A stretch of 42,292 bases of DNA, taken from assembly GCA_030017615.1 (NCBI GenBank), contig JASEIG010000007.1, forward strand, positions 1 through 42,292, written 5' to 3'. The first letter of the stretch is position 1, and each line of letters starts with the position of its first letter. Source of the stretch: Patescibacteria group bacterium. Lineage in GTDB: Bacteria > Patescibacteriota > Minisyncoccia > UBA6257 > UBA9933. Below, piece by piece: positions 13,010 to 22,791 of the stretch. A model generated the notes under the pieces. The model saw nothing but the letters and a program-made list of their open reading frames with translations, did no database searches and was not told where the DNA came from. The position numbers were made by a program, and so were the translations under genes.

Positions 13010-13111
13010 AATTTCAAGATTGAAAGTTGAAAAATTAAATGAGAAACTATGAAATTAAAAAATATTAAATCTTTCAATCAGCAATCTAGCAATCAGTAAT
13101 TAGCAATTATT
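13010..13111. repeat. AT-rich repeat tract between pilM and pilN
   Basis: Contains inverted and direct units of the CTTTCAATC / TTGAAAGATT / AGCAATC family (for example ATTGAAAGTTGAAAAATT and AATCTTTCAATCAGCAATCT), so parts of the tract can pair with each other. Confidence 0.6.
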
Positions 13112-13114
13112 ATT

Positions 13115-13663
13115 GTGCCTTACACTCAATCTTTTCTTGAAGAACAATTAAAAAAAGGCGGGAATATATCAATCGGATGGCCGTGGAAGTTATTTACTTT
13201 CAGCGCGATTGCTTTTACAACTATGATCGCGGTATTTTTGGGAATAAAGCTTGGTTATCAATCGTATGTTAAAACGCAACTGGAAAAAGTTGACCAAAAC
13301 ATAACCCAGCTCAACGCTTCTTTTTCTGAAGAACAGGAAAAAAATTTTATGGTCTTTTATTCCCAGCTTAACAATATTCAAAGTCTGATTCAGGATCGCC
13401 GGTTAGCGTCCGCATTTTTTGATTTTCTTGAAAAAAATACCATTAAAAGCGTTTATTACAGAAATACCAATTTTGATTTTAAAAATTCGGAAGTTAAACT
13501 AGATGGTATAGCTCCAAATTATGAAATAATTTCTCAACAAATGGAAATATTCGGAAAATCTTCTCAAATTGTCAGAGTTGTTTTAAATAGCTCTAAAATG
13601 TCGGATATAAAAGGAGAAGGAATTATTTTTTCAATTAGGATGAATTTTAACTTATTAAAGTAA
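13115..13663 (+). CDS. PilN-like pilus platform protein
   Basis: 182 residues. A short cytoplasmic N-terminus is followed by one membrane span (about 24-50, WKLFTFSAIAFTTMIAVFLGI), a coiled-coil (QLEKVDQNITQLNASFSEEQE) and a small ferredoxin-like domain. This is the architecture of PilN, which couples PilM in the cytoplasm to PilO outside the membrane. It starts at GTG; no ATG lies nearby. Sequence identity to named PilN proteins is low, so the assignment leans on position after pilM and on topology. Confidence 0.75.
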   Translation: MPYTQSFLEEQLKKGGNISIGWPWKLFTFSAIAFTTMIAVFLGIKLGYQSYVKTQLEKVDQNITQLNASFSEEQEKNFMVFYSQLNNIQSLIQDRRLASAFFDFLEKNTIKSVYYRNTNFDFKNSEVKLDGIAPNYEIISQQMEIFGKSSQIVRVVLNSSKMSDIKGEGIIFSIRMNFNLLK

Positions 13664-14243: not shown

Positions 14244-14344
14244 AAATTGCAAAATTGAAAGATTGAAAATTGAAAAATTGATAAAAATACAAAATAAAAA
14301 ATCTTAAATCTTTCAATCAGCAATCTGGCAATTAGCAATATTAT
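14244..14344. repeat. AT-rich repeat tract between pilO and the pilP-like gene
   Basis: Units such as AAATTGCAAAATTGAAAGAT, then AATCTTTCAATCAGCAATCT. The second part is nearly the same as the tract at 13010-13111. Confidence 0.6.
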
Positions 14345-14347
14345 TTC

Positions 14348-17585: not shown

Positions 17586-17688
17586 AATAATTGCTAATTG
17601 CTAATTGCTAATTGCTAATTGCTAATTGCAAGATTGCAAAATTGAAAAATTAATCTTTCAATAATCAATCTTTCAATCTTTCAATTTT
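17586..17688. repeat. Tandem TTGCTAA heptamer array and CTTTCAAT tract
   Basis: Five exact copies of TTGCTAA run from 17591 to 17625, followed by TTGCA, TTGCAAAATTGAAAAATTAA and then CTTTCAAT-type units up to the pilC start. It is the cleanest tandem array of the family. Confidence 0.8.
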
Positions 17689-17689
17689 C

Positions 17690-18904
17690 TTGAAATTTAA
17701 ATACACCGCCAGAAATAAAGATGGAGAATTACAGGCCGGTTATGTTGAATCCTTTAGTAAAGAAGGCGCAATTAATATCCTTGCCGGACACGAGCTTTTT
17801 ATTTTAAGCATTGAAAGCGCTGAAACGACGCATTGGTACGATTTTATTTCCCGCATTATTAAAAGGGTTACATCAAAAGACCTGATGATTTTTACGCGCC
17901 AATTCTCAATTTTATTGGAATCAAAAGTTCCTCTTCTTGATTCAATTAAAAATCTTCAACAGCAAACCGGCAATCAAATGCTCCAGGAGGTTATTTATGA
18001 AATAACATCCGATATTGAAAGCGGCTTATCTCTTTCGCAAGCTTTGGAAAAACAAGGAAAAATATTTTCGGAATTTTATGTAAGTATAATAAAATCGGCC
18101 GAAATTACGGGCCACTTGGAAGAAGCGTTAATATATCTCGCCGATTATTTGGAAAAAGAAAGAATGTGGCGCCAGAAAATCCAAAACGCTTTAATTTATC
18201 CGGCATTTCTTTTATTTGGATTTTTTGCTGTTGTAGTGCTTATGGTTACGGTCGTTTTCCCAAAAATAAAACCGGTTTTTGAAGACTCAACCATTCAACT
18301 TCCATGGTTCACTAAATTTGTTCTCGGGATGGGAGATTTTCTGATTAATTGGTGGTGGATAATTCTTGCGATTTTCATTCCTATTTTCTTTCTTATTTTG
18401 GATTATTTTAAAACCGACGAAGGAAAAATTGTTTTTGACGAATTTTTAATGAGAATACCCGTATTGGGAATGCTTTTTAAAAAAATGTATATTGCCAGAT
18501 TTGCCGAATCTCTTAATGTTTTAATCACCGGCGGAATTCCGATTGCGCAGGCTTTGGAAATCTCCGGCCACTCCATCGGCAGTTTTGTTTTTAGAGATAT
18601 TCTTCACATCACTTCCGAGAAAGTCAGGGGCGGGCAACTTCTCTCGGCATCCTTGAAGGAAAATGAAACTTATTTTTTCCCGCTAGTCAGTCAAATGATC
18701 GCAATCGGGGAGTCTACCGGAAGACTTGAGGAAATTTTGTCCAGAATTTCAAAACTTTACACTCGCGATGTGGATGATTTAATAGGCAGATTCTCGGAAC
18801 TTATCCAGCCGATTCTTATAATTTTCATCGGAATTTTCATTGGGGTATTATTTGCTTCAATCTTAATTCCGATATATAATTTAATACAGAATTTCAAATC
18901 GTAA
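17690..18904 (+). CDS. pilC: Type IV pilus inner-membrane platform protein PilC
   Basis: GspF/PilC family polytopic protein on which PilB and PilT act. Two repeats of a cytoplasmic helical domain (DLMIFTRQFSILLESKVPLLDSI, then ARFAESLNVLITGGIPIAQALEI) are each followed by membrane segments (about 165-195, 220-245 and 370-400). Length, 404 residues, is standard. The start is TTG at 17690, directly after a repeat tract with no Shine-Dalgarno site; the translated start MKFKYTARNKDGEL is the usual GspF beginning, supporting it. Identification is firm. Confidence 0.94.
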   Translation: MKFKYTARNKDGELQAGYVESFSKEGAINILAGHELFILSIESAETTHWYDFISRIIKRVTSKDLMIFTRQFSILLESKVPLLDSIKNLQQQTGNQMLQEVIYEITSDIESGLSLSQALEKQGKIFSEFYVSIIKSAEITGHLEEALIYLADYLEKERMWRQKIQNALIYPAFLLFGFFAVVVLMVTVVFPKIKPVFEDSTIQLPWFTKFVLGMGDFLINWWWIILAIFIPIFFLILDYFKTDEGKIVFDEFLMRIPVLGMLFKKMYIARFAESLNVLITGGIPIAQALEISGHSIGSFVFRDILHITSEKVRGGQLLSASLKENETYFFPLVSQMIAIGESTGRLEEILSRISKLYTRDVDDLIGRFSELIQPILIIFIGIFIGVLFASILIPIYNLIQNFKS

Positions 18905-18906
18905 GC

Positions 18907-19478
18907 ATAAAACCTAAAACATGCTTTTGGGCATTAAGGTCGAAAACAAATTAAAATAAAAATTTTTATGTTTAAAGTTTCACAATTCATATTTCAAAGA
19001 AGGAAAGGATTTACTCTCATTGAGATGCTCATAGTTATAGCAATAATTGCCATTTTGGCGTCGGTGTTTTTGGTCGGATTAAGAGGATTTCGCGGAAGCG
19101 CTTATGACTCCAGAAGAATCGCCGATTTACAAAAAGTACAGAGCTATCTTGAAACTATTTATACTCAAACTCGCGCGTACCCGGCGGCAACTTCCTGGAG
19201 CGATTTACAGACTCAAATCGTAAATGCCAACCTGGGTATTTCCAATGTTCCCAACGATCCCTTAAGTGAAAGCAGTGGGCAGAATTACATTTATTGTTAC
19301 GAAACTGCCGGAAAGCAAGGCTATATTTTAGGGGCTGTTTTATCAACCTCCGGACATTCAGCTTTAAAGGAATCTTACCACGGCTCGATTACTGGATATA
19401 ATTGCACCCAATCTTTGGATTGTTCTGTCGGTTCTCAGAATCTTTGCGTTAATTTCTAATTATAAAACCTAAAACATG
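18907..19478. repeat. 17-bp direct repeats flanking pilA
   Basis: ATAAAACCTAAAACATG occurs exactly at 18907-18923 and again at 19462-19478, on either side of the major pilin gene. This belongs to a second repeat style (AAAACCTAAAACATG), also echoed near 37519-37580. Confidence 0.7.
18968..19459 (+). CDS. pilA: Type IV major pilin-like protein (PilA)
   Basis: 163 residues with a class III prepilin leader: MFKVSQFIFQRRKG, then FTLIEMLIVIAIIAILASVFLVGL. Cleavage is expected after Gly14, with Glu5 of the mature protein present. The hydrophobic helix is followed by a small globular domain with four cysteines near the C-terminus (YNCTQSLDCSVGSQNLCVNF) and one earlier, which may form disulfides. 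Unlike the minor pilins its leader is not made of repeat sequence. Its position directly after pilC and its complete leader make it the best candidate for the main pilus subunit. Confidence 0.9.
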   Translation: MFKVSQFIFQRRKGFTLIEMLIVIAIIAILASVFLVGLRGFRGSAYDSRRIADLQKVQSYLETIYTQTRAYPAATSWSDLQTQIVNANLGISNVPNDPLSESSGQNYIYCYETAGKQGYILGAVLSTSGHSALKESYHGSITGYNCTQSLDCSVGSQNLCVNF

Positions 19479-19512
19479 AAGCATACAACATAGAAATCTT
19501 ATGTTATATGCT
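19479..19512. terminator. Hairpin between pilA and pilD
   Basis: AAGCATACAACATAG pairs imperfectly with TTATGTTATATGCTT around a short loop (about 14 pairs). It may stabilise the pilA message or reduce read-through into pilD; no long T-run follows. Confidence 0.4.
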
Positions 19513-19526
19513 TTACGTTGGATTTA

Positions 19527-20489
19527 ATGTATTTATTTCTTTTTATTATTGGTTTGGCTGTTGGAAGTTTTTTAAATGTCGTTTCTCTTCGATATAAAGA
19601 AGGGAAACGACTTTTAGATTTAGGAATTATAAACGGCCGTTCGCATTGCATGAATTGCCGCAAAACCCTTGTTTGGTATGAACTCATTCCTTTATGCAGT
19701 TTTTTATGGCAAAAAGGAAAGTGCCGCAACTGCCGCCATAAAATTTCTTGGCAATATCCGATTGTTGAATTTTTATCGGGAATTATTTTCGTTTTAGTCC
19801 CGACAAGAATTACCAATTACCAATTACCAATTTTCAATTTTCAATCAATTACCCAATTACCTAATTACTTAATTACTAATTATTATTTACTATTTACCAT
19901 TATTATTTGGCTGATAATTTTTTCTTTGCTTTTATTATTATCTATAATCGATTTCCGCCTTTATATCATTCCCGATTCGATAAATATTCTTTTAGGGTCT
20001 TTAGGGATTTTTTTGATAATCTTTCAATCTTTTAATCTTTCAATCTTTCAATCTTTTCTCGGCCACTATTCCTTAATGTTTAACCTTTTTTCTGATTCTG
20101 CGATTTGCTATTTCCCCAATCTTTCAATCTTTCAATTCTTCAATCTTCCAATCTCTTGTAACCTTGCAATTTCTCATTTGTCCGCCGCTCTTTTAGGCGC
20201 AGTCTTCTTCGGCTTGATTATTATTTTAAGCAAGGGTTGTGCTATGGGCTGGGGAGATTTTAAATTGGCGATTGCGTTGGGATTGATTTTCGGTTGGCCG
20301 GATTTTCTTATGGCGCTGTTTTTATCTTTTACGATTGGCGCGATTGTCTCTTTATTTCTTATAATAAGAAAAAAAAAGAAAATAAAAGATGCCGTGCCTC
20401 TTGGTCCGTTTCTGGCTCTTGGAGCGTTAACCACATTTCTGTTTGGTTATCAGATTGTGGACGGTTATTTTAAATTATTCGGCCTATGA
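19527..20489 (+). CDS. pilD: Prepilin peptidase PilD with repeat-derived insertions
   Basis: Aspartic membrane protease that cleaves prepilin leaders. The N-terminal part has the zinc ribbon (HCMNCRK and KCRNCRHK) and AVGSFLNVV. The two catalytic Asp motifs are present: IDFRLYIIPD and GWGDFKLAIALG. Two segments are low-complexity and match the intergenic repeat DNA: RITNYQLPIFNFQSITQLPN (19803-19905) and one rich in FNLSIFQSF / NLSIFQFFNLPIS (about 20020-20175). They fall in loops between membrane helices and make the protein about 320 residues, longer than usual. ATG at 19527 is chosen over TTG at 19518. Confidence 0.88.
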   Translation: MYLFLFIIGLAVGSFLNVVSLRYKEGKRLLDLGIINGRSHCMNCRKTLVWYELIPLCSFLWQKGKCRNCRHKISWQYPIVEFLSGIIFVLVPTRITNYQLPIFNFQSITQLPNYLITNYYLLFTIIIWLIIFSLLLLLSIIDFRLYIIPDSINILLGSLGIFLIIFQSFNLSIFQSFLGHYSLMFNLFSDSAICYFPNLSIFQFFNLPISCNLAISHLSAALLGAVFFGLIIILSKGCAMGWGDFKLAIALGLIFGWPDFLMALFLSFTIGAIVSLFLIIRKKKKIKDAVPLGPFLALGALTTFLFGYQIVDGYFKLFGL

Positions 20490-20520: not shown

Positions 20521-21099
20521 ATGAAATCTTTCAATCTTTCAATTTTCAAATTTTGCAATAGTCGCGAGGGCTTCACCCTTCTCGAACTTTTAGTTGTTTT
20601 CGGAATTATAACATTGCTTTCAACAGGGCTTCTTTTTTATAACAGAACCACTGAAAGCCAGCTTATTTTATACAAAGACCAGTCAAAAATAATCGGCGCT
20701 TTGGAAAAAGCGAAAGCTATGAGCATAGAATCATTCAGTGAAACAACCGCCGCTTGCGGATACGGGGTCAGTTTTTCCGCCCCCAATAATATTGTTATTT
20801 TCAAAGATTTATCTCCTTCCAATGATCCAAATTGTTTGGATATTAACTTTGCTTATAACGGCGATCCGGCGGGGGATTGTCAAAACTACGCGGAGTGCGC
20901 CGAGAAAATAAGTTTGGACAAAAACATCAGTTTTAGCCAGCTTGACCTGAATAATATCGTTTTCATTCCTCCCGACCCCGCTGTTGTGATTGATAATAAT
21001 CCTTCAAAATCAGAAGGCGTAATTAAGATAAAATATTCAAATAATAATTCTGAAAAAAGCGTAAAAGTAAGCGCGAGCGGACAGATCACCGCCCAATAA
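20521..21099 (+). CDS. Minor pilin 1 (GspH/FimT-like)
   Basis: 192 residues. Leader MKSFNLSIFKFCNSREG, then FTLLELLVVFGIITLLSTGLLFY, with cleavage after Gly and Glu5 present. The leader is encoded by ATGAAATCTTTCAATCTTTC and following bases, the same unit as the intergenic repeats. An upstream in-frame start at 20443 overlaps pilD and would put extra sequence before the leader, so ATG at 20521 is used. The globular part (YKDQSKIIGALEKAKAMSIES) is typical of GspH-type pseudopilins. Minor pilins prime assembly or form the tip. Confidence 0.85.
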   Translation: MKSFNLSIFKFCNSREGFTLLELLVVFGIITLLSTGLLFYNRTTESQLILYKDQSKIIGALEKAKAMSIESFSETTAACGYGVSFSAPNNIVIFKDLSPSNDPNCLDINFAYNGDPAGDCQNYAECAEKISLDKNISFSQLDLNNIVFIPPDPAVVIDNNPSKSEGVIKIKYSNNNSEKSVKVSASGQITAQ

Positions 21100-21135
21100 A
21101 AATTGCTAATTGCACGATTGCAAGATTTGAAAATT
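21100..21135. repeat. AT-rich repeat before the four-helix-bundle gene
   Basis: TTGCTAATTGCACGATTGCA-type sequence directly precedes the inserted gene; a matching tract follows it at 21528-21573. Confidence 0.5.
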
Positions 21136-21525
21136 ATGACATTCAAAAAATTTGAAGATTTGCCAATTTGGCAAGAAAGAAGATTATTAGCCAAAATTAT
21201 ATATACGACATCGTCAAAATCAAATTTTAAAGATTTTTCGCTTCGTGATCAAATGAGACGCTGTGTTGTTTCGTTTTCATCAAATATAGCCGAAGGATTT
21301 GAAAGAGGATCTAATAAAGAACTTATTCAATTTTTATATATTGCCAAATGGTCTTTAAGAGAACTACGTTCTCAATCTTATTTAGCGCTTGACAGCAGTT
21401 TAATTAATAATGCTGATTTTGATACTATTATAAGTAAGTGTTCAAATTTATCTGCAAAGACAAATAATTTTATTAAATATCTTATGAACTCTGAATTAAC
21501 CAAACTTAGACATAAATCCAGATAG
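21136..21525 (+). CDS. Four-helix bundle protein (S23/IVP family)
   Basis: 129 residues starting MTFKKFEDLPIWQERR, with the family signature RDQMRRCVVSFSSNIAEGFERGSNKELIQFLYIAKWSLRELRSQ (conserved S-IAEG-R and the SLxEL-like helix). Members were first noted in intervening sequences of 23S rRNA genes and are widespread as isolated inserts in bacterial and CPR genomes; their function is unknown. Here it lies between two minor pilins on the same strand, flanked by repeat tracts, so it looks like an insertion into the pilus operon. ATG at 21136 is chosen because the upstream extension is repeat sequence. Confidence 0.9.
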   Translation: MTFKKFEDLPIWQERRLLAKIIYTTSSKSNFKDFSLRDQMRRCVVSFSSNIAEGFERGSNKELIQFLYIAKWSLRELRSQSYLALDSSLINNADFDTIISKCSNLSAKTNNFIKYLMNSELTKLRHKSR

Positions 21526-21527
21526 AA

Positions 21528-21573
21528 CTTAATCTCCCAATTTTTCAATTTTGCAATTAACAATTTTTATTTT
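21528..21573. repeat. AT-rich repeat tract after the four-helix-bundle gene
   Basis: Units CCCAATTTTTCAATTTTGCA and ACAATTTTTATTTT lead directly into the next repeat-built pilin leader. Confidence 0.5.
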
Positions 21574-22110
21574 ATGAAATCTTTCAATCTTTCAATCTTT
21601 CAATTTAGCAATCAAAAAGGTTACCTTTTGGTTGAAATGATGCTTGCCTTAAGCCTGCTTACAATCGGGTTTTTGGGATTTTTGGGGTTAATATCCCGTT
21701 CAACCAGCATGAATCGGGTTGTTAGCGACCAGTTTACCGCCAATTATCTGTCATCGGAAGGAATTGAAGTGATAAAAAATCTGATAGATTCAAATATCAT
21801 TCAAAGCCGTCCGTGGAACGAAAGATTTGGCAGTGAAAGATGTTTTGAGGTTGATTATAAAACTATGAACGTTTCCGGGCTGTCTAGCATTGATTGCCAG
21901 GGCGGCAGTTCTAACCCGATTAAATTTGATTCCTCAACGGGTGTCTTTTCTTACACCGTTGGACAAAACTCCGCTTTTTACAGAACTATTCATATCGTTC
22001 CCGTAAATAGTGATGAAATAAAAGTCAATTCAACGGTAAAATGGACCGGAAGAGGCGGAATTAAAAATGAAATTAATCTTGAGAACCATTTCTTTAATTG
22101 GAGACCCTAA
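21574..22110 (+). CDS. Minor pilin 2 (PilV-like)
   Basis: 178 residues. Leader MKSFNLSIFQFSNQKG, then YLLVEMMLALSLLTIGFLGFLGL. The residue after the cleavage Gly is Tyr rather than the usual Phe; Glu5 is kept. Three period-8 CTTTCAAT units encode the leader. The mature part has two cysteines (RCFEVDYK, SIDCQGG) and a beta-rich C-terminus ending NHFFNWRP. Topology and position fit a PilV/GspI-type minor pilin. The repeat-built leader is almost identical to those of the genes at 20521 and 22189. Confidence 0.85.
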   Translation: MKSFNLSIFQFSNQKGYLLVEMMLALSLLTIGFLGFLGLISRSTSMNRVVSDQFTANYLSSEGIEVIKNLIDSNIIQSRPWNERFGSERCFEVDYKTMNVSGLSSIDCQGGSSNPIKFDSSTGVFSYTVGQNSAFYRTIHIVPVNSDEIKVNSTVKWTGRGGIKNEINLENHFFNWRP

Positions 22111-22188
22111 AAAATTGTTAATTGCAAGATTGCAAAATTAAAAGATTAATTTTCAATTTTTTAAGTAACAATCTTGTAATTTTATCAT
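22111..22188. repeat. AT-rich repeat tract between minor pilins 2 and 3
   Basis: TTGTTAATTGCAAGATTGCA, then AAGATTAATTTTCAATTTTT; same family as the other gaps. Confidence 0.55.
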
Positions 22189-22791
22189 ATGAAATCTTTC
22201 AATCTTTCAATCTTTCAATTTGGCAATAAGAATAAAGGTTTTACCCTTATTGAACTTTTGGTCGCGATGTCGTTATTTGTGGTGCTGATTGCCGTTGCCG
22301 TAACAGGGTTTATCCAGTTGATGAGAGGGCAACGCGTTATCGTGTCTCTTATGGCGGCAAATGACAATATGAGTTTGGCTTTGGAACAGATGACAAGAGA
22401 AATCAGAACCGGCTATAATTTCTCAAAAGTATCGGAAACCGAATTTCAATTTGTTAATGCCAATAATTTTGACATTCGTTACAGATTAAACAACGGCGCC
22501 ATTGAAAAAGGAACCGGGTTTCTCGCGTGGGACCCGAACAACCCTAATCCTAATTTATGCGCGGGAGGAGAACCCGATTACATAAACGGATTTTGTTACA
22601 AAAAAATCACCGCCGATAATGTGAAAATAGACAAATTTAATTTTGATTTATTCGGCAATAACCAAGGAGACGGTTATCCGCCCAGAATCACCATCAGGCT
22701 TTCAGTGTCCAGCGCCGAACCCGATGTTCAAAGAATGAATATATCTATTCCCATCCAAACCACTATCAGCGCCAGAACGATAGATTCCTAA
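22189..22791 (+). CDS. Minor pilin 3 (PilW/GspJ-like)
   Basis: 200 residues. Leader MKSFNLSIFQFGNKNKG, then FTLIELLVAMSLFVVLIAVAVTGF, with the expected Gly cleavage site and Glu5. The mature domain has NMSLALEQMTREIRTGYNFS, the GspJ/PilW-type region after the helix, and two cysteines (NLCAGGEP, NGFCYKK). The leader coding DNA again carries three CTTTCAAT units. With the other two it completes the usual H-, I- and J-type set of minor pilins that starts pilus assembly. Confidence 0.87.
   Translation: MKSFNLSIFQFGNKNKGFTLIELLVAMSLFVVLIAVAVTGFIQLMRGQRVIVSLMAANDNMSLALEQMTREIRTGYNFSKVSETEFQFVNANNFDIRYRLNNGAIEKGTGFLAWDPNNPNPNLCAGGEPDYINGFCYKKITADNVKIDKFNFDLFGNNQGDGYPPRITIRLSVSSAEPDVQRMNISIPIQTTISARTIDS

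Follow-up and report, generated by a model that had tools for sequence, protein, structure and literature searches.

How three prepilin genes of one small-genome bacterium came to open with the same DNA, and what kind of DNA this is, are the questions raised by a type IV pilus locus of a Patescibacteria group bacterium. The locus lies in the window, by which we mean the whole stretch of 42,292 nucleotides that was analysed; it is contig 23 of a genome assembled in 25 contigs (566,234 bases, 97.9% complete). Domain models identify in it a PilO-like protein, two T2SSE ATPases, PilC, prepilins and the prepilin peptidase PilD, and the three prepilin genes at issue are adjoined by genes for T2SSE, T2SSF, PilO and the A24 peptidase (Table 1). 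The window prepilins display a cleavage motif of G followed by F/Y-x-L-x-E and then a hydrophobic stretch. PF07963 matches the genes at 18968, 20521 and 22189, as does TIGR02532, with 20521 just below its cut-off; the gene at 21574 lacks a Pfam match and has the cleavage motif GYLLVE together with a weak resemblance to models of PilV and ComG. The first prepilin after pilC is likely the major pilin.

Table 1. Coordinates of the features discussed. Positions are those of the window, except in the last row, which gives sites in related genomes.
Feature	Position	Strand	Remarks
Minor prepilin gene (GspH/ComGD-like, weak matches)	20521..21099	+	leader 20521-20571 MKSFNLSIFKFCNSREG, then FTLLE
Minor prepilin gene (PilV-like, weak)	21574..22110	+	leader 21574-21621 MKSFNLSIFQFSNQKG, then YLLVE
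Minor prepilin gene (ComGE/GspJ-like, weak matches)	22189..22791	+	leader 22189-22239 MKSFNLSIFQFGNKNKG, then FTLIE
First prepilin gene after pilC	18968..19459	+	leader MFKVSQFIFQRRKG, without array
Prepilin peptidase PilD (A24)	19518..20489	+	PF06750, PF01478; in-frame arrays in variable loops
pilC (T2SSF)	17690..18904	+	PF00482; anchor for fetching related loci
23S_rRNA_IVP gene	21136..21525	+	PF05635, 2.1e-28; sits between two of the prepilins
Non-coding gap of ATTGCTA, ATTGCAAG and CTTTCAAT units	17586..17689	+	hairpin fold, z -2.4
Non-coding gap, inverted octamer-like units	14244..14347	+	fold z -3.8
Non-coding gap with ATTGCAAGATTGC...CAATCTTGTAAT arms	22111..22188	+	abuts the start at 22189; z -2.5 for 22108-22225
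(ACTCAAA)n sites inside enzyme genes	G019:C39:4772, G019:C37:5277, G014:C4:11882, G046:C22:32597, G065:C16:4225

The initial annotation held that the three genes share a start encoding MKSFNLSIF(Q/K)F ahead of the prepilin cleavage site, and that this start is made of repeat DNA which also fills the gaps between pilus genes. The common start is real: the window contains just three exact matches to the 20-base ATGAAATCTTTCAATCTTTC, at 20521, 21574 and 22189, and seven if up to three mismatches are allowed, against 0.04 expected. The layout is the same in all three genes, namely ATGAAAT, a run of four octamer-like units (two or three of them exact copies of CTTTCAAT), a few codons and the cleavage glycine; the exact units lie at 20528-20543 (two, with degenerate units after them), 21581-21604 (three) and 22196-22219 (three). 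Starts lying elsewhere can be set aside for the genes at 21574 and 22189, where the assigned ATG is the sole ATG, GTG or TTG codon between the preceding in-frame stop and the cleavage site; the gene at 20521 has alternative TTG codons at 20443 and 20455, both within the end of pilD. The further proposal that the repeat supplies the start codon context has to be amended for the window genes, as ATGAAAT falls outside the CTTTCAAT register and the start codon is not part of the unit.

The unit is abundant in the window, with 32 copies of CTTTCAAT against 4.7 expected and a maximum of 10 in 100 shuffles. A repeat restricted to pilin starts, which the annotation had named as the mark of gene duplication rather than exaptation, is not what we find: exact copies lie in gaps near 13071, 14310 and 17655-17685, and also inside pilD at 20021-20136. 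The leaders are indeed repeat DNA whose family also occurs in non-coding gaps, but the filling of the gaps holds only in part, the gaps adjoining the three genes containing the related variants CAATTTTTCAATTTTGCAAT and CAATCTTGTAAT and not exact CTTTCAAT. The gaps listed in Table 1 fold as hairpins of complementary arms, and others do not (z -0.25 and -0.5); a strong hairpin (z -6.4) is present at 19457-19517, between the first prepilin and pilD. With one mismatch allowed, CAATCTTTCAATCTTTC has 14 copies in the genome, 11 of them on the window contig, and is present in 9 of 150 relatives; the unit is therefore nearly private to the source genome.

One way to account for the common starts is duplication of a single pilin, the repeats elsewhere being unrelated to them. 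The ATGAAAT prefix and the phase of the array are identical in the three genes and in the nearest relative, G013 (PilC 68% identical), the first pilin of which opens with the same 15 bases, and this speaks for duplication. Yet in their mature parts the window pilins reach at most 22-26% identity or are not detectably alike, bar a stretch of 16 residues at 50%, and a recent whole-gene duplication is therefore excluded. Comparable sets of pilins are also found again elsewhere in the family, where their leaders are unrelated, and the presence of CTTTCAAT arrays in gaps and pilD tells against unrelated repeats, so that we give duplication very little credence. The identity of prefix and phase, extending to G013, instead favours a single capture with subsequent copying over three captures. 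The probable history is one capture of a CTTTCAAT-type array, within this lineage or earlier, from which copies then spread among the pilin paralogs. The copying likely concerned the leader alone, and transfer of leader DNA between paralogs by, for example, recombination between arrays would fit the pattern. For the window genome the repeated exaptation put forward in the annotation thus probably gives way to one capture, the repetition being evident in the different repeats found in prepilins of different genomes.

These were examined in 100 loci anchored on PilC, comprising the window, 19 family loci and 80 of about 90 matched non-family loci of the order; L081 (a second stretch of G012) and weaker non-family matches were left out. 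Seventeen genomes of this set have at least one leader array. The units differ from genome to genome and include CCTAAAT (G011, G014), CCTAAAA (two genes of G003), ATCTCAA (G015), TTTTCAA (G006), CTCAAAA (G019, and G046 of another family), ATTGGAA with ATTTGCC (G024) and ATTCAAA (G102, G065), among others. The period is 7 in 18 of the 24 leader arrays and 8 in the other six. Another short leader, from G046, begins within the repeat itself, its start codon being part of a CATGCTC unit. Gain is visible between close species, an array being present in one and absent from another member of a genus: in two species of one genus the same gene begins with MKKNKG in G014 and with MKKNSKLKTQNSKFNKG, encoded by a (CTCAAAA)n array, in G019 (ATGAAAAAAAATAAAGGT and ATGAAAAAAAACTCAAAACTCAAAACTCAAAACTCAAAATTCAACAAGGGT, respectively, ahead of an identical mature start). 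In another genus the corresponding leaders are MKTLHYKKG in G017, MKSQLSQKGSALSLSKG in G001 and MKILQYKKGSALIRQATEKG in G021; the insert in the latter two resembles a dispersed element, with seven matches at up to two mismatches in G021 and only its own in G001. The in-frame TAA of a pure CCTAAAT array is replaced by TAT or TAC in G011 and G014, which suggests that an open frame has been maintained in these leaders.

Many of the units recur around the genes that carry them. Taking as excess a number of sites elsewhere in the locus above the largest of 20 shuffles, the three window genes show it clearly (111-149 sites against means of 7-25), as do G011, G003 (both genes), G015, G014, G102, G006, G013 and one of two genes each in G024 and G065. 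Within loci of 5-10 kb there is no such excess for G019, G046, G040 (both genes), G138, G098, G105 and the other gene of G065 and of G024, and none that is clear for G106 (both genes). The units of G019 and G046 are present elsewhere in their genomes, in searches for which the reversed patterns used as a control are near mirror images of the patterns and hence uninformative, and the copies examined lie inside genes; these two leaders may therefore have grown in place instead of deriving from intergenic DNA. Repeats of other kinds also seem to be present in prepilin leaders, namely GSALSLSKG-type sequences (G001), GAGCGAGCAAAGCGAGTCGAAGG (G142), the GGCGGATCCGCC palindrome (G104) and SPLDKGEREGV (G229), among L067, L068, L137, L150 and L271; the last three sequences we take to be dispersed repeat families.

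Is the prepilin leader special in this respect, or do arrays enter the beginning of any gene? We compared 340 prepilin-like genes with 882 others (1,222 in all), 236 of the latter coming from 20 random stretches away from pilus loci in 19 genomes, picked because most of them had array leaders. Arrays, called at a score of at least 12 and a shuffle p of at most 0.01, were detected within the opening 60 nt in 24/340 of the prepilin-like and 6/882 of the other genes (Fisher p 2.6e-9, odds ratio 11), a count made with a motif-based prepilin set, rule-assigned start codons and related, non-independent genomes, and one that was not blind, the motif having been widened to GQ-type pilins after earlier controls contained such pilins. 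The supply next to the genes is similar, as the 60 nt upstream contain an array in 14/340 and 30/882 cases (p 0.61), and codons 51-70 contain one in 0/340 and 5/882. Of the six exceptions, half are pilus-type genes with GQ.. starts, presumably PilX-like from our reading of them, and two are A-/T-rich; the sixth reflects a start set too far upstream in a PilN-like gene of G021, which has a second ATG at MSYTQSVL that matches the window start at 13115 (MPYTQSFL).

The densities of arrays scoring at least 16, with gaps read on the same strand and genes with N dropped, follow the same order. Leaders have 1.51 arrays per kb, gaps 0.68 and PilD 0.22, whereas the opening 51 nt of other genes have 0.07 and the remaining coding interiors 0.04; mature prepilin, over 149 kb, contains none at this score, and shuffled sequence yields at most one array per class. 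The search of relatives called for by the annotation recovered array leaders in several families of the order, with differing units. Outside the order, where all 29 matching loci were taken with the same thresholds and genes with N dropped, 0/81 prepilins have an array, although the in-order rate would give about 6; the other genes there have leader-region arrays in 2/325 cases, and upstream arrays stand at 0/81 for prepilins and 5/325 for others.

The leader arrays are also oriented. The sense strand is the C-rich one in 21 of the 23 that could be decided (21:2, p 6.6e-5), against 13:11 for upstream arrays. This raises the prospect that the arrays are selected, the A-/C-rich strand providing lysine-rich, unstructured 5' ends that would aid translation or targeting. 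Array leaders have a higher net charge (+4.0, compared with +3.1 where another leader has at least 12 aa), and leaders have twice the array density of gaps. The median length of array leaders is 17 aa, against 10 for others. The bias may also stem from stop codons, only 19% of the frames of upstream arrays being open in the sense direction and 27% in the antisense; stops in the G-rich strands, a coding preference or both may be reflected in it. Moreover, the array leaders of the window read FNLSIFQF and are not lysine-rich, and many prepilins of array-bearing genomes make do with short leaders such as MKKG. Adaptive extension as the general cause is in our judgement unlikely, but as leader density exceeds gap density there may be some selection for array leaders.

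A different kind of benefit would be phase variation, with gain or loss of units after the start codon switching a prepilin off and on. There is a precedent in the CTCTT repeats of the Neisseria opa genes, in which, as here, the unit is not divisible by 3 and codes for part of a leader peptide (PMC3960869, in excerpt), and all 24 leader arrays have periods of 7 or 8, not multiples of 3, and lie after the start codon. The opa arrays are phase-variable, whereas those described here are short and imperfect (mean 4.3 copies, maximum 5.3, 91% periodic), belong to leaders of the prepilin type and have shown no switching. They are no longer than the upstream arrays (mean 4.6 copies, 87% periodic), in place of the long, pure arrays that switching would lead one to look for, and periods of 7 and 8 are also found in gaps and housekeeping genes. 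Eight of the nine prepilins lacking an in-frame ATG have no array, and a switched-off copy was not seen among them; in the ninth, from G011, the array lies directly before a GTG start, with no earlier ATG in the stretch shown. Phase variation is accordingly quite improbable.

Prepilins are not the only proteins to have taken in such DNA. In window PilD, counting from an ATG at 19527, arrays occur at codons 93, 106, 163 and 196, with AATTACC-type units at about 19806-19876 and CTTTCAAT units at about 20016-20054 and 20115-20152. Alignment places array-like residues in the PilD loop that follows a conserved membrane segment in G000, G016, G009, G018, G006 and G011, the array score confirming G009, G016, G006 and G000, and further PilD loop arrays are found in G003, G012, G140, G104 and G011. 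Proteins that we read as LigA have differing units at recurrent loops, around codons 160, 555 and 600-638 (L108, L113, L118, L114, L129, L131, L155, L156), and one array-bearing loop ranges from a few to about 35 residues across 35 LigA-like proteins. The (ACTCAAA)n arrays of Table 1 stand in-frame inside apparent housekeeping enzymes of four genomes, where they encode KLKTQNSKLKT-like peptides; by eye, we take these enzymes for IleRS, SerRS, PGK and GatA. All 37 interior arrays, from genes without N, have a period of 7 (31) or 8 (6). Since PilD, LigA-like proteins and other enzymes have arrays in loops, the prepilin leader is not the sole coding site: arrays turn up in coding DNA at whatever sites a protein can bear them, and of the sites that we found, the leader is the most permissive.

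We therefore consider it fairly probable that intergenic-type arrays repeatedly become prepilin leaders and are tolerated there because the leader is expected to be cleaved off. In known prepilins, PilD cuts after the glycine, and the motifs of the genes described here predict the same. In this view, new short arrays with units of 7 or 8 nt would continually arise in genomes of the order, for the most part in intergenic DNA, and an array next to a prepilin gene would be brought into its frame by a start codon upstream of it or by growth just after the ATG. As PilD would cut the leader off before the pilin joins the pilus, its length and sequence would be almost free, given an open frame, a terminal glycine and a positive charge. 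Other genes would rarely accept arrays at their start, their N-terminus staying in the product, and would admit them only in permissive loops.

Repeat DNA that becomes coding has been described in several settings, each of which shares only some features with these leaders. Rickettsia palindromic elements likewise lie in-frame inside unrelated genes and are tolerated (PMC10969869, in excerpt), but they are palindromic families of about 150 bp, whereas the coding inserts here are mostly tandem arrays of 20-40 nt with site-specific units and a strong preference for prepilin leaders. In one gene, a predicted secretion signal is made in part of a single 168-bp intergenic repeat (PMC2759123); here there are many arrays of 7-8 nt units, in prepilins of several families. 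The heptamers GGGAATC and GGGGATT of Xanthomonas and Nostoc also form length-variable, mainly intergenic 7-nt arrays, although they are G-rich with one consensus per group (PMC4692102), while those of this order have many A/T-rich units and also enter genes. No paper on repeat-derived prepilin leaders was found in the open-access library searched; a survey of short tandem repeats (PMC12699852) does not mention Patescibacteria, heptamers or signal peptides, and the accessible part of a paper on Saccharibacteria pili (PMC12206443) contains no link to repeats that we could find.

The origin of the arrays may have a further trace in the window. The 23S_rRNA_IVP gene between two of the prepilins is flanked by complementary repeat arms at about 21097-21135 and 21526-21573 (arm score 25). 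Genes of this family, PF05635, occur in 19/22 family genomes and 44/61 genomes of the order, and sit between complementary arms of 7-8 nt units that vary from copy to copy (also in L016, L017 and L018). In a first set the mean arm score is 18.6 for 25 IVP copies against 10.0 for 74 other genes (p 3e-9; 9.0 when mispaired), and in a second set, from other families, 17.8 for 25 copies against 8.6 for 63 (p 4.5e-10; 9.3 when mispaired), with 8/25 IVP copies of the second set below 15; the copies scored are 25/32 and 25/29, namely those with a complete ORF and flanks where these were expected. At G000:C11:8881-9202, the match to PF05635 is split between two reading frames, open for 80 and 78 aa, so that this copy looks frameshifted. 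We know of no description of PF05635 genes between copy-specific complementary arrays, and no paper on IVP genes between inverted arrays was found in the open-access library searched. Proteins of the PF05635 family have been described from intervening sequences of rRNA, CPR included (PMC11270868); for heptamers, slippage tied to polymerase geometry has been suggested (PMC4692102, in excerpt). A neighbouring IVP gene as the sole source of arrays was rejected: a home-made profile, which missed a broken copy in G013 and a contig-edge copy in G003, finds seven IVP-like ORFs in the 100 loci, four of them with a prepilin start at most 250 nt downstream, and an array is present in one of these four prepilins, that of G016 being just under the array threshold. 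A process possibly linked to PF05635 proteins that keeps writing short arrays, and of which the cleaved prepilin leader, as the main coding acceptor, is the record, is thus an idea that we put forward only tentatively.

For those annotating such genomes, the findings are a warning that a long, unusual leader or an insert in a loop may derive from repeats. More generally, the order offers a natural experiment in how repeats become protein, in which the supply is similar beside all genes and the segment that is expected to be discarded retains the most. This helps account for the strong variation of prepilin leaders in these small-genome bacteria, and directs attention to a mutational process, so far unexplained, whose period is strictly 7-8 nt.
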